Below, in pieces: positions 25,336 through 29,827 of a DNA stretch of 64,000 nucleotides; position 1 is the first letter of the stretch; each line of letters begins with the position of its first letter. The DNA is taken from NCBI GenBank assembly GCA_020248905.1, contig JADCGR010000019.1, positions 1 through 64,000 of the forward strand. Reading direction: 5' to 3'. Origin of the DNA: Curvibacter sp. GTDB lineage: Bacteria; Pseudomonadota; Gammaproteobacteria; Burkholderiales; Burkholderiaceae_C. A program made the translations under genes and the position numbers. Below the pieces are notes generated by a model. It was not told the DNA's origin. It did no database searches and saw nothing but the letters and a program-made list of their open reading frames with translations.

Positions 25336-26655
25336 ATGACAGACTTGCGAGAGGCAAGAGTCGCCGTCATCGGTGGCGGCCCGGCCGGGCTGATGGCTGC
25401 CGAGGTGCTGGTCGAAGCGGGTGTGTCCGTGGATCTCTATGACGCCATGCCCTTGGTGGGGCGCAAGTTCCTGCTCGCCGGCAGGGGCGGCCTCAACCTC
25501 ACCCACTCGGAGGGGGCGGATCGCTTCGCCCAGCGTTACGGCGAGCGACGCATCCAGATCGCTGCGCTGCTGGGCGAGATCGACGCTACCAATCTGCGGG
25601 CCTGGGCGCAGGGCCTGGACATCGAGACCTTTGTCGGGACCTCCGGGCGGGTGTTCCCCAGGGATATGAAAGCGGCGCCGCTGTTGCGCGCCTGGCTGCA
25701 TCGCCTGCGGCATCCAGCCCACGGCGGTGCGGGCGTGCAGTTCCATATGCGGCATCGCTGGCTGGGCTGGCGTCAGGACGGGCGCACGCTGCGTTTCGAG
25801 ACGCCTCAGGGTGAGCTTGGCGTGCAGGCCCATGCCACCGTGCTGGCCCTGGGCGGCGGCAGCTGGGCGCGTTTAGGCTCAAACGGTGCCTGGGTGCTCC
25901 TGCTGGTTGCGCGCGGCGTGGCCGTAGCACCGCTGCTGCCGTCCAACTGCGGCTTTGATGTCGCACCGGGCACGAGGTCGCCGCCCCCGGGGCAAGCGCT
26001 GCCCGTCCGGGCGGTGATGCCAGGCGCGGGCTGGAGTGAATTCTTTGCCAGCCGTTACGCTGGCCAGGCTTTCAAGACTGTGGCGCTCGTGTTCACCGAC
26101 AGCCGCGGGCGCCGCTTTGAGCGCAAGGGCGAGTTCGTGGCGACGGCCACAGGCGTGGAGGGCAGTCTGGTTTACGCGGCGTCGGCACTGCTGCGCGACG
26201 AGATCATCCGCAGCGGTTACGCCGTGCCGCATATCGACCTGCTGCCGGACTGGACGGCCGAGCGCGTACGTGCCGAAGTGCGGCATCCGCGCGGATCGCG
26301 CTCGCTGTCCAGCCATCTGAAGGGCCGGCTTGGGCTGGACGGCATCAAGGCGGCCCTGCTGCACGAGGTGCTGGGGCGCGAGGGCGTGCACCACAGCGAG
26401 GCGCTGGCGCATGCCATCAAGGCCCTGCCTTTGCCGCTCGTAGCTGCACGTCCCATCGACGAAGCCATCAGCAGCGCGGGCGGCGTGCTCTTCGAGGGGC
26501 TGACCCCGGACCTGATGTGCGAGGCGCTGCCCGGCGTGTTCTGCGCTGGCGAGATGCTGGACTGGGAAGCCCCGACCGGTGGTTACCTGCTGACCGCCTG
26601 TTTTGCCAGCGGCAAGCGCGCAGGGCAGGGCGTGCTGCGCTGGCTCGCACGTTGA
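25336..26655 (+). CDS. BaiN/HI0933-like FAD-dependent flavoprotein
   Basis: A 439-aa oxidoreductase. The N-terminal FAD-binding motif is V-I-G-G-G-P-A-G-L-M-A-A; family motifs G-R-K-F-L-L-A-G-R-G-G-L-N-L-T-H and the C-terminal S-S-A-G-G-V and F-C-A-G-E-M-L-D-W-E-A-P-T-G-G-Y are all intact. The subgroup resembles TIGR03862 flavoproteins (PP_4765 family). No electron partner lies nearby, and the substrate is unknown. It starts 7 bases after the helicase gene, so it probably belongs to that operon. Confidence 0.88.
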   Translation: MTDLREARVAVIGGGPAGLMAAEVLVEAGVSVDLYDAMPLVGRKFLLAGRGGLNLTHSEGADRFAQRYGERRIQIAALLGEIDATNLRAWAQGLDIETFVGTSGRVFPRDMKAAPLLRAWLHRLRHPAHGGAGVQFHMRHRWLGWRQDGRTLRFETPQGELGVQAHATVLALGGGSWARLGSNGAWVLLLVARGVAVAPLLPSNCGFDVAPGTRSPPPGQALPVRAVMPGAGWSEFFASRYAGQAFKTVALVFTDSRGRRFERKGEFVATATGVEGSLVYAASALLRDEIIRSGYAVPHIDLLPDWTAERVRAEVRHPRGSRSLSSHLKGRLGLDGIKAALLHEVLGREGVHHSEALAHAIKALPLPLVAARPIDEAISSAGGVLFEGLTPDLMCEALPGVFCAGEMLDWEAPTGGYLLTACFASGKRAGQGVLRWLAR

Positions 26656-26663
26656 GGATCATG

Positions 26664-26692
26664 AAAAAGCCGCTGGCGCAGGCCAGCGGCTT
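26664..26692 (-). terminator. ffs: Terminator of the SRP RNA gene
   Basis: AAGCCGCTGGC and GCCAGCGGCTT pair perfectly (11 bp, 4-base loop, 26667-26692). On the minus strand five T follow, just past the SRP RNA 3' end. It may also stop transcripts from the flavoprotein gene on the plus strand. Confidence 0.8.
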
Positions 26693-26702
26693 CATGAACG
26701 AG

Positions 26703-26800
26703 GTGACGGACCTCGACCCCGGCACTGACTCCACAGTTAGGGCTGCTTGGTTCCCCACCTGACCCGGTTGGCCGCTTTACCATGCGGGAAGGCCCGTCGT
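26703..26800 (-). ncRNA. ffs: Signal recognition particle 4.5S RNA
   Basis: On the minus strand the conserved SRP domain IV is clear: GGTCAGG, then GGAA, then AAGCAGCC, followed by the return strand TCAGTGCCGGGGTC. The ends pair: GACGGGCCT at the 5' side with AGGTCCGTC at the 3' side, one G-U wobble. That sets a length near 98 nt, normal for the small bacterial type. It binds Ffh to target membrane proteins. It sits next to dnaX but on the opposite strand, and ends at a strong terminator. Confidence 0.9.
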
Positions 26801-26881
26801 GTGGGATTGTAGCGCCGCAGGCAGAAGCCAAAGGCAGCGCATCCGGTGGGCTGACTCTATCCACACCGTAGAATCCCGAGC

Positions 26882-28756
26882 ATGTCCTATCTCGTGCTTG
26901 CCCGCAAATACCGTCCCCGGAGCTTTGCCGAGATGGTCGGGCAGGAGCATGTGGTGCGAGCGCTGGGCAATGCGCTGCAGACGCAGCGCCTGCACCACGC
27001 CTACCTTTTCACCGGCACCCGGGGGGTGGGAAAGACGACGGTTTCGCGCATCCTCGCCAAGTCGCTTAATTGCGTGGGCGCCGACGGGCAGGGCGACATC
27101 ACTGGTCAGCCCTGTGGCGTCTGCCAGGCCTGCACCGACATCGACGCTGGACGCTTTATCGACTACACCGAGCTCGACGCCGCCTCCAACCGCGGTGTGG
27201 ACGAAATCCAGGCGCTGCTGGAGCAGGCGGTGTACAAGCCGGTGCAGGGGCGCTTCAAGGTCTTCATGATCGACGAAGTCCATATGCTCTCGAACACGGC
27301 CTTCAACGCCATGCTCAAGACGCTGGAGGAGCCGCCCGAGTACCTCAAGTTCGTGCTGGCCACAACCGATCCGCAGAAGGTACCGGTCACCGTGCTCTCG
27401 CGCTGCCTACAGTTCAACCTGCGGCCGATGGCACCCGAGACGGTGCTGGAGCACCTGGGCCGCGTGCTGGGCGCCGAGCAGGTGCCGGCTGAGCCGGGCG
27501 CGCTGCGCCTGCTCGCGCGGGCGGCGCGCGGTTCCATGCGCGATGCGCTCTCGCTGACCGATCAGGCCATCGCCTTCGGCTCCGGGCAGCTGGAAGAGGC
27601 CGCCGTGCGCCAGATGCTGGGCAGCGCCGACCGCACGCATGTCTACACCCTCATCGATGCCCTGGCGCGCGCGGATGGCAAGACCGTGGTGGAAACTTCC
27701 GAGGCGCTTCGGCTGCAGGGCCAGAGCGCGGCCTCAACGCTCGAGGAGATGACGGTGGTTTTGCAGCGCATGGCGGTGCTGCAGGCCGTACCCGGCAGCG
27801 CCGATGCTTCGGACCCCGAAGCCGCCGAGACTGCGCGCCTGGCCGCACTGCTGCCGGCTGACGAGACTCAACTGCTCTACAGCCTGTGCCTGCACGGCCG
27901 GGGTGAGCTGGGCCTCGCACCCGACGATTATGCGGCGCTGACCATGGTGCTGCTGCGGCTGCTGGCCTTCAAGCCGGGCGTGTTTGCCGGTTCGGCTGAA
28001 AAAAAAACACTGAAATTACCTGAGGTCGCGCCTCGGCCCCAGCCCGTGATGGCTCCTGCCGGCGCTCGCCCGGAGCATGTCGAGGGGCTTCGAAGGGCTC
28101 AGCCCCAACGGAGTGCGCCCGTCCCGCCCGCAGCCGCTCACCCCATTGCTGCAACGGCTGCCCGTCCCGCAGGCTTCACGCCGCCGGGCCAGGTGCTGTC
28201 CGTGGTCGACGAGGAACATCCGGTGCAGCCCGCGCGCCCCGCGACCGCCATGCCCGCCGCCCAGGTCGTGGCTGTGCCCGTGCGCGTGGCCGCTGAATCG
28301 CGCGCTGATGCGCCGGCCCCGGGCGCAGCACGCGGCGCTCCTCTGGTGCCTACCGAGGAGGGCGGCTACTGGCACGAGGTGGTGCGCGGCCTCATCGCCA
28401 GCGAGGCCGTGTCGGCGCTGGTGCGCGAGCTCGCCTTGCAGTCGCAGCTGGTGGCGCGTGATGCAGACCAGTGGCTGCTGCGCGTCGAGCGCGAGTCGCT
28501 CAATTCCACCTCCAGCCGCGAGCGGCTGCAGGCCGCCCTGCAGGCTGCAGGCCACGGTGTGACGCTGGCGGTGGAGATCGGCCGCGTGAGCGACAGCCCG
28601 GCGCGCCGGATGGCGGCCATCGCCGAGGAGAGGCAGCTCGCAGCGGAGAAGCTCATCCACGAGGACCCCTTCGTGCAGGCGATGATGCGCGAGTTCGGCG
28701 CAAAAATCGTACCCGGCAGCATCAAGCCCATCGAACCGACCCACCAACCGAAGTAA
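26882..28756 (+). CDS. dnaX: DNA polymerase III subunits tau and gamma
   Basis: A 624-aa clamp loader subunit. Walker A is G-T-R-G-V-G-K-T-T, the zinc-binding Cys set starts at L-N-C-V and continues C-G-V-C-Q-A-C, Walker B is [10 protein letters not shown] and the SRC motif is L-S-R-C-L. Domains I-III fill residues 1 to about 365; a Pro/Ala-rich linker (about 377-500) leads to the tau-specific C-terminal domain, which binds DnaB and the polymerase. A run of nine A at codons 373-376 can give a gamma-length product (see separate entry). TAGAAT eight bases before the ATG suggests a leaderless or very short leader. Part of the linker is encoded by a palindromic repeat. Confidence 0.96.
27999..28007 (+). 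promoter_or_regulatory. dnaX: A9 slippage site in dnaX
   Basis: Nine A in a GC-rich gene, read GAA AAA AAA ACA. A -1 shift continues AAC ACT GAA ATT ACC and stops at TGA 28021-28023 (380 aa). A +1 shift reads CAC and stops at TGA 28011-28013 (376 aa). Both would end where domain III ends, as gamma does. E. coli makes gamma by ribosomal frameshifting; Thermus thermophilus by transcriptional slippage at an A run. Use in this organism is inferred. Confidence 0.65.
28071..28115. repeat. REP-like palindromic repeat within the dnaX coding region
   Basis: The unit runs from CGGAGCATGTCGAGGGGCTT to AGCCCCAACGG, a close variant of the Comamonadaceae TCGACAGGCTCAGCCCGAACG palindrome. It is in frame and encodes [14 protein letters not shown] in the tau linker. 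A related pair lies at 5559-5608. Confidence 0.6.
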
Positions 28757-28764
28757 GGAAGCCC

Positions 28765-29097
28765 ATGTTCAACAAAGGACAACTCGCCGGCCTGATGAAG
28801 CAGGCCCAGGCCATGCAGGACAACCTCAAGAAGGCCCAGGAAGAACTGGCTTTCATCGAGGTCACCGGTGAATCCGGTGCCGGCCTGGTCAAGGTGGTGA
28901 TGACCTGCAAGCACGACGTCAAGCGCGTTACCATCGATCCGAGCCTGCTGGCCGAAGACAAGGACATGCTGGAGGATCTGGTCGCTGCGGCTGTCAACGC
29001 TGCGGTGCGCAAGGCTGAAGAGACCAGCCAGGAGAAGATGGGCAAGCTTACTGCTGGCATGCCCGGATTGCCTGGTGGAATGAGGTTCCCTTTCTGA
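28765..29097 (+). CDS. ybaB: YbaB/EbfC nucleoid-associated protein
   Basis: A 110-aa dimeric DNA-binding protein. It starts [15 protein letters not shown], has the central strand [12 protein letters not shown] and D-P-S-L-L, and ends with a glycine/methionine-rich tail [16 protein letters not shown] stands before the ATG. It sits between dnaX and recR, the usual dnaX-ybaB-recR order, and probably shares their transcript. Confidence 0.95.
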
Positions 29098-29236
29098 GGG
29101 CCACTGCGCGAGCGTGGGGCGTCGTTGCGGGGCCCGTGGGGAAATCCTCACGGACCTCAAGTCCATTGCGATTTCCCGCCACCCGCGCCTCGCCTGAGGC
29201 CCGCTCGCTACGCATCGAAGGATTGTTGGTACATCC

Positions 29237-29827
29237 ATGTCCGACGCCCACTCCCTTGACGCGCTGATCCAGGCGCTGCGCCGCCTGCCGGGCGTGGGCG
29301 TGAAGTCTGCGGGGCGCATGGCTTTCCATCTGCTGCAGCACGACCGCGAGGGCGCGCAGTTGCTGGCGCGCGCCCTGCAGCAGGCGGCGATCCAGGTGCG
29401 TCACTGCACACGCTGCCACACCTTCAGCGAGGCGGAGGTCTGCGCCACTTGCCAGGACCCGGGCCGCGACGCCAGCAAACTGTGCGTGGTGGAAACGCCC
29501 GCCGACCAACTGGCCCTGGAGCGCACCGGCGCCTACAAGGGCCTGTACTACGTGCTCATGGGTCGGCTCAGCCCGCTAGACGGCATCGGGCCGCTTGACA
29601 TCGGTCTCAAGAGTCTCTTTGATCGCACGATTGATGGCTCCGTGCGCGAGGTGATCCTGGCCACCAACTTCACGGCCGAGGGCGAAGCCACAGCCCACGT
29701 CATCGCCGAGGGGCTCAAGGCGCGTGGCGTCGCCTACACGCGCCTGGCGCGAGGCGTGCCCATAGGCAGCGAGCTGGAGTACGTGGACCTGGGCACGATC
29801 GCGCACGCGCTGGTGGACCGGCGCTAA
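29237..29827 (+). CDS. recR: Recombination mediator protein RecR
   Basis: A 196-aa protein that helps RecA load on single-stranded gaps with RecF and RecO. The helix-hairpin-helix is [10 protein letters not shown], the zinc finger is C-x2-C-x8-C-x2-C (C-T-R-C to C-A-T-C), and the Toprim part begins L-C-V-V-E-T-P-A-D and includes [11 protein letters not shown]. The length is normal. Confidence 0.97.

Follow-up and report, generated by a model that had tools for sequence, protein, structure and literature searches.

A conserved run of nine adenines in Curvibacter dnaX is a candidate RNA polymerase slippage site for making both tau and gamma

Here, we identify a run of nine adenines (A9) in the dnaX gene of a Curvibacter genome as what is probably a selected transcriptional-slippage site, yielding both tau and gamma as in Thermus. 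We propose that RNA polymerase realigns on the A9 run during transcription of dnaX. Messenger RNAs with nine A's, or with nine plus or minus a multiple of three, would then be translated into tau, and those with other numbers of A's would send ribosomes into the -1 or +1 frame, where they would stop within a few codons. The product would be gamma, a subunit of the clamp loader that has about 376-380 amino acids and possesses domains I-III without the tau tail. That slippage occurs, its extent, and the production and usefulness of gamma are points that we infer from sequence.

In the window, the 64,000-nucleotide stretch of DNA that was analysed, the zero-frame open reading frame (ORF) for tau spans 26882..28756 on the plus strand (624 codons) and was recognized as dnaX from the ORF call together with profile and Pfam matches, scoring 398 bits against TIGR02397, the DnaX N-terminal family (cut-off 250). 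Pfam matches on the plus strand place domain III (PF12169), the final domain retained in gamma, at residues 238-362 (27593..27967) and the tau-specific domain V (PF12170) at residues 504-613 (28391..28720). The original prediction placed an A9 run just past domain III, with stops in both shifted frames, and both points are borne out: the run lies at 27999..28007 (+), in codons 373-376 (GAA AAA AAA ACA), with a +1-frame TGA one codon past it (28011..28013, +) and a -1-frame TGA five codons past it (28021..28023, +). Loss of one A or gain of two enters the +1 frame, with a predicted product of 376 amino acids and 40.55 kDa ending in KKH; gain of one A or loss of two enters the -1 frame, with a predicted product of 380 amino acids and 40.97 kDa ending in KKNTEIT. 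Tau itself is predicted to have 624 amino acids and a mass of 66.7 kDa. Either shifted product would extend past the end of domain III (residue 362) and stop short of domain V (residues 504-613), thereby keeping domains I-III and lacking domain V.

A small SRP RNA (RF00169; 26702-26798, minus strand; 56 bits against a gathering score of 40) is encoded just upstream of dnaX in the reverse orientation. Between this RNA and an ORF ending at 26655 is a near-perfect inverted repeat (26660-26696), perhaps a terminator, which also appears as a sub-threshold miRNA match in the RNA-family scan.

The A9 in dnaX is no chance run. The window is 65% GC and its second-longest A run is an A7, and the 3.22-Mb genome contains A or T runs of nine or more at 10 places (12 overlapping matches). 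One of these is the dnaX run and one lies close to where an asparaginase ORF begins; the remaining eight are apparently intergenic by a reading that used no annotation, in which three (L272, L277 and L281) were placed outside genes through ORF lists or a spanning frame with no Pfam match, and five were judged extragenic by eye from their spanning frames.

The original prediction also turned on the presence of the run in close relatives, and within the genus it is found throughout: 24 of 26 genomes (the window's own included) gave a dnaX match, and all 24, each with a junction that could be read, have A9. Eight of these overlap a second set, the named loci: the best 80 of 559 relatives in a scan of genome contigs, ranked by protein similarity and blind to the A run. 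All of these best 80 of 559 carry the run, as A9 in 79 loci and A10 in one. The titles of 58 of the best 80 bear a genus or family name of Comamonadaceae, including Rhodoferax, Variovorax, Ramlibacter, Curvibacter and Hylemonella, genera that we take to belong to that family; the other 22 of the 80 are bins labelled at higher rank only, except for one Sulfuritalea. A wider family sample gave dnaX matches in 112 of 120 genomes and a read junction in 110, two matches having stopped short of it. With the window's own genome and one genus mate excluded, 108 further family genomes remain, of which 59 carry the run (57 A9, one A10 and one A8), three carry A_AAA_AAG, and 46 carry neither.

Beyond the family, a run of at least eight A's is found in one of 27 distinct loci in the order and two of 28 in the class, counted among best-scoring loci (115 and 86 genomes matched, respectively). 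A phylum sample of 60 genomes provided 30 loci, with A9 or A10 in three and A_AAA_AAG followed by an immediate -1 stop in four, one locus having both the A run and the heptamer. Outside the clade described below, the A run is uncommon, yet present. Two phylum-sample loci outside the family, L287 and L298, have an A9 in the dnaX linker with nearby stops in both frames, and L298 additionally has A_AAA_AAG with an adjacent -1 stop about ten codons downstream.

The distribution of the run follows the DnaX tree, a maximum-likelihood reconstruction from domains I-III with 123 rows, based on a short search with SH-aLRT support only. Fifty-three family rows form one clade (SH-aLRT 96), in which the run is present in 49 rows, A_AAA_AAG in two, and neither in the remaining two; the 49 carriers comprise 45 labelled in the tree and four duplicate loci that are unlabelled there and are A9 by junction reading. 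The run is absent from all 43 family rows that lie beyond the clade, and one order row, L239, carries an A10. The simplest account would be one early gain of the run in this clade followed by a few subsequent losses. Given this shared ancestry, the counts of run-bearing loci are not independent events. Among the clade members, L197/L384 and L200/L387 lack an A run in the linker, and L200 has a G8 there.

We next consider the stops in the shifted frames, using 153 loci with a run of 8-10 from the genus, named and family sets (taken from 270 loci, 258 of them distinct, with three run-bearing order or class loci excluded). The +1 stop lies exactly one codon past the run in 139 of the 153, within two codons in 142, and within eight codons in 149, being absent within eight from L070, L097, L118 and L134; at control positions, a +1 stop occurs within two codons in 3-6% of cases. 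In the -1 frame, 150 of the 153 loci have a stop within 12 codons. Both stops fall within eight codons at 134 of the 153 loci, compared with 4.6% of 13,419 control positions further towards the 3' end of these genes and 1.1% of 4,508 control positions in 46 run-less family members. When synonymous codons were redrawn with the amino acids kept, both stops were expected within eight codons at 28.3 loci versus the 134 observed, and a +1 stop within two codons at 110 of 153 versus the 142 observed. Since the redraw already yields 110, much of the excess of +1 stops sits in the amino acids, which could have been chosen for the +1 stop or could simply explain it.

We take the covariation between the second codon past the run and the base that follows it to be the decisive point over the amino-acid account. 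Where this codon is CTG, the next base is A, giving TGA, in 111 of 111 cases; at other places in the linkers, an A follows 156 of the 1,057 CTG codons (15%). Where it is CTA, the next base is A 14 times (TAA) or G nine times (TAG), or 23 of 23, compared with A or G after 30 of 49 CTA codons elsewhere in the linkers. GTA followed by A (three loci) and TTA followed by A (two loci) likewise retain TAA. Fisher's test on CTG/CTA against A/G gives a p-value of 2.8e-8, uncorrected for relatedness. The +1 stop persists, then, through changes of both codon and amino acid. Polymerase slippage needs this stop, because the loss of one A or the gain of two sends ribosomes into the +1 frame; the same stop is useless to a -1 ribosomal shift, and covariation of the stop therefore separates the two mechanisms. 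A -1 ribosomal shift alone leaves a fixed, covarying +1 stop unexplained. A +1 ribosomal shift would likewise use it, and we know of no +1 ribosomal-shift signal of such a form.

Heptamer sites show the reverse pattern. In genus g29 (loci L415-L419; genomes G053 and G408-G411), all five genomes carry A_AAA_AAG at the place of their relatives' A run, preceded by GG[GA]AG-TGCCGCCGAGCCGTC, whose leading block reads AGGAG in one genome and GGGAG in the other four, and followed immediately by a -1 stop; the g29 member G053 sits within the run clade. Across these five sites and L212, an A7G family locus absent from the tree, all six have an adjacent -1 stop in a constant position, and a scattered +1 stop that lies 3, 4, 10, 19, 39 or 41 codons on. 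Two further loci fully fit neither pattern: L123, a heptamer with its -1 stop two codons further on and a +1 stop at 8, and L134, an A8 with a +1 stop at 36. A conserved downstream hairpin in g29 was considered and rejected, the predicted hairpin ranging from strong (L418, L419) through moderate (L416) and weak (L415) to absent (L417).

These patterns weigh against programmed -1 ribosomal frameshifting on A_AAA_AAA, similar to that of E. coli but without the AAG, as the main source of gamma with polymerase slippage a minor contributor, an alternative that we consider unlikely. A_AAA_AAA, a possible slippery heptamer for a -1 shift, is in frame at all 153 run loci, and the near-universal -1 stop would suit such a shift; it is the +1 stop, however, that is the tighter of the two and that covaries as a stop. 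Stimulators of ribosomal frameshifting are also not general. Shine-Dalgarno-like words before the run show no excess (14 of 153 loci versus 9.6 expected from control positions), and none occurs in the 20 nucleotides before the window's A9. When the best hairpin just past the site was ranked among those at other positions, the E. coli dnaX control came ahead of all 59 others, and the 51 of 153 run loci tested have a mean of -6.5 kcal/mol versus -6.2 elsewhere, with a mean percentile of 0.58. In 11 of these 51 (22%), about twice the chance level, the hairpin is in the best tenth of positions, so that some run loci may possess one. The original prediction had seen no obvious hairpin after the window's run, and indeed the best hairpin starting 3-9 nucleotides past it, at -10.3 kcal/mol, is unremarkable, being equalled or bettered at 39% of 80 other positions. 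Rfam has a curated family for the dnaX element, and our RNA-family scan of 26600-29400, run without the E. coli site as a control, returned no dnaX element among matches up to an E-value of 10. Folding z-scores for the 50 nucleotides past the run were tried and set aside (mean -0.49 versus -0.18 further on; 7.8% versus 7.2% below -2), as this test lacks power in GC-rich DNA, with the E. coli hairpin scoring +0.29; the position-ranked test, which E. coli passes, replaced it.

The same bases would suit either process, and polymerase slippage could thus be joined by unassisted ribosomal slippage on one A9. Excerpts of one study report that magnesium-chelatase cassettes with 7, 9 and 11 A's shifted at 10%, 40% and 63% in E. 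coli (PMC3711429). We regard action at both levels as quite improbable, as no general stimulators were found, and it is a combination that sequence by itself cannot separate from its parts. Least of all do we favor the view that the run is kept for its peptide, EKKT, or by descent alone, with shifted products as noise and stops merely tolerated. Nearly all family carriers do share ancestry in one clade, as descent would have it. Against this very improbable reading, both lysine codons in the run are AAA in all 80 named loci, the best of 559 relatives, whereas AAA makes up 34% of lysine codons in the rest of dnaX among those run loci that have longer DNA; the linker flanking the run differs between loci in both length and sequence; and the +1 stop outlasts codon and amino-acid change alike. 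Transcriptional slippage, which the original prediction had favored, is the reading to which the conserved, covarying stops in both frames and the lack of general ribosomal stimulators point.

The window's dnaX can be set beside several known systems. In Thermus thermophilus, dnaX is a single ORF with a sense-strand A9 and a stop close by in each non-zero frame, tau arising from the zero frame and the shorter gamma from the others, according to excerpts of two papers (PMC1088944, PMC5009743). The hallmarks of Thermus-type slippage also include mRNAs heterogeneous in A number and gamma at about 1:1 with tau. The window shares the A9, the single ORF and the near stops in both shifted frames. Unlike in Thermus thermophilus, whose lineage is far removed from the window's, the site here seems to have originated inside one family, and comparison among relatives offers a test for selection on the two stops; slippage here is predicted from sequence, and as far as this tells, the site would work like that of Thermus.

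E. coli K-12 dnaX, our control record, has A_AAA_AAG with AGGGAG upstream, a strong downstream hairpin, an adjacent -1 stop and a +1 stop 12 codons on. As in E. coli, gamma in the window's gene is predicted to branch off the tau frame at a slippery poly-A that follows the conserved domains. Where E. coli has A_AAA_AAG, the window has A_AAA_AAA followed by ACA; its hairpin does not stand out, and its +1 stop is one codon past the run. Chlorobium, Chloroherpeton and others have a two-ORF dnaX, with 7-10 A's in 12 of 17 genes, as described in part of one report (PMC3711429). There too a poly-A lies at the border of two products, but recoding is needed for the longer one, whereas the window's tau is the plain zero frame of a single 624-codon ORF. 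In Caulobacter-type systems, gamma is cut from tau by a protease, as one passage of a further paper has it (PMC5009743).

The heptamer genus within the clade raises a broader possibility. In g29, all lysine tRNAs that were found are of the UUU type (genomes 78-99% complete); the window's genome has both UUU and CUU, and its other tRNA loci add none. This difference fits a remark, in an excerpt on Thermus, that two lysine tRNAs, UUU and CUU, are possibly relevant to slippage there (PMC5009743), and we offer it as a lead only. The idea that two lysine tRNAs decide between slippage and frameshifting gives no strict rule, with an exact tRNA-Lys(CUU) 15-mer missing from 21 of 59 run-bearing family genomes. 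We tentatively suggest, at somewhat less than even confidence, that the clade gained gamma-making polymerase slippage once and retained it over roughly 60 sampled genera, and that at least one inner genus swapped it for E. coli-like frameshifting, with A_AAA_AAG, a GG[GA]AG block upstream and only the -1 stop fixed, apparently keeping only the UUU tRNA-Lys. If true, the swap would make the two decoding levels exchangeable means to a single product ratio, among relatives close enough for comparison.

The window's site appears to add to the known type of dnaX slippage, with strong comparative support. In the literature searched, some of it seen in excerpt, we found no earlier account of a dnaX run or slippage in Comamonadaceae or Acidovorax, and we do not claim priority. 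In passages of a genome survey, truncating slippage was set aside as hard to judge comparatively (PMC1088944); covarying stops in both shifted frames amount to a comparative test for it. A 2012 review, as excerpted, describes most bacteria beyond enterobacteria and Thermus as without a dnaX frameshift signature and perhaps without gamma (PMC3290774). A slippage site under selection across this environmental clade would mean that gamma is worth keeping there.
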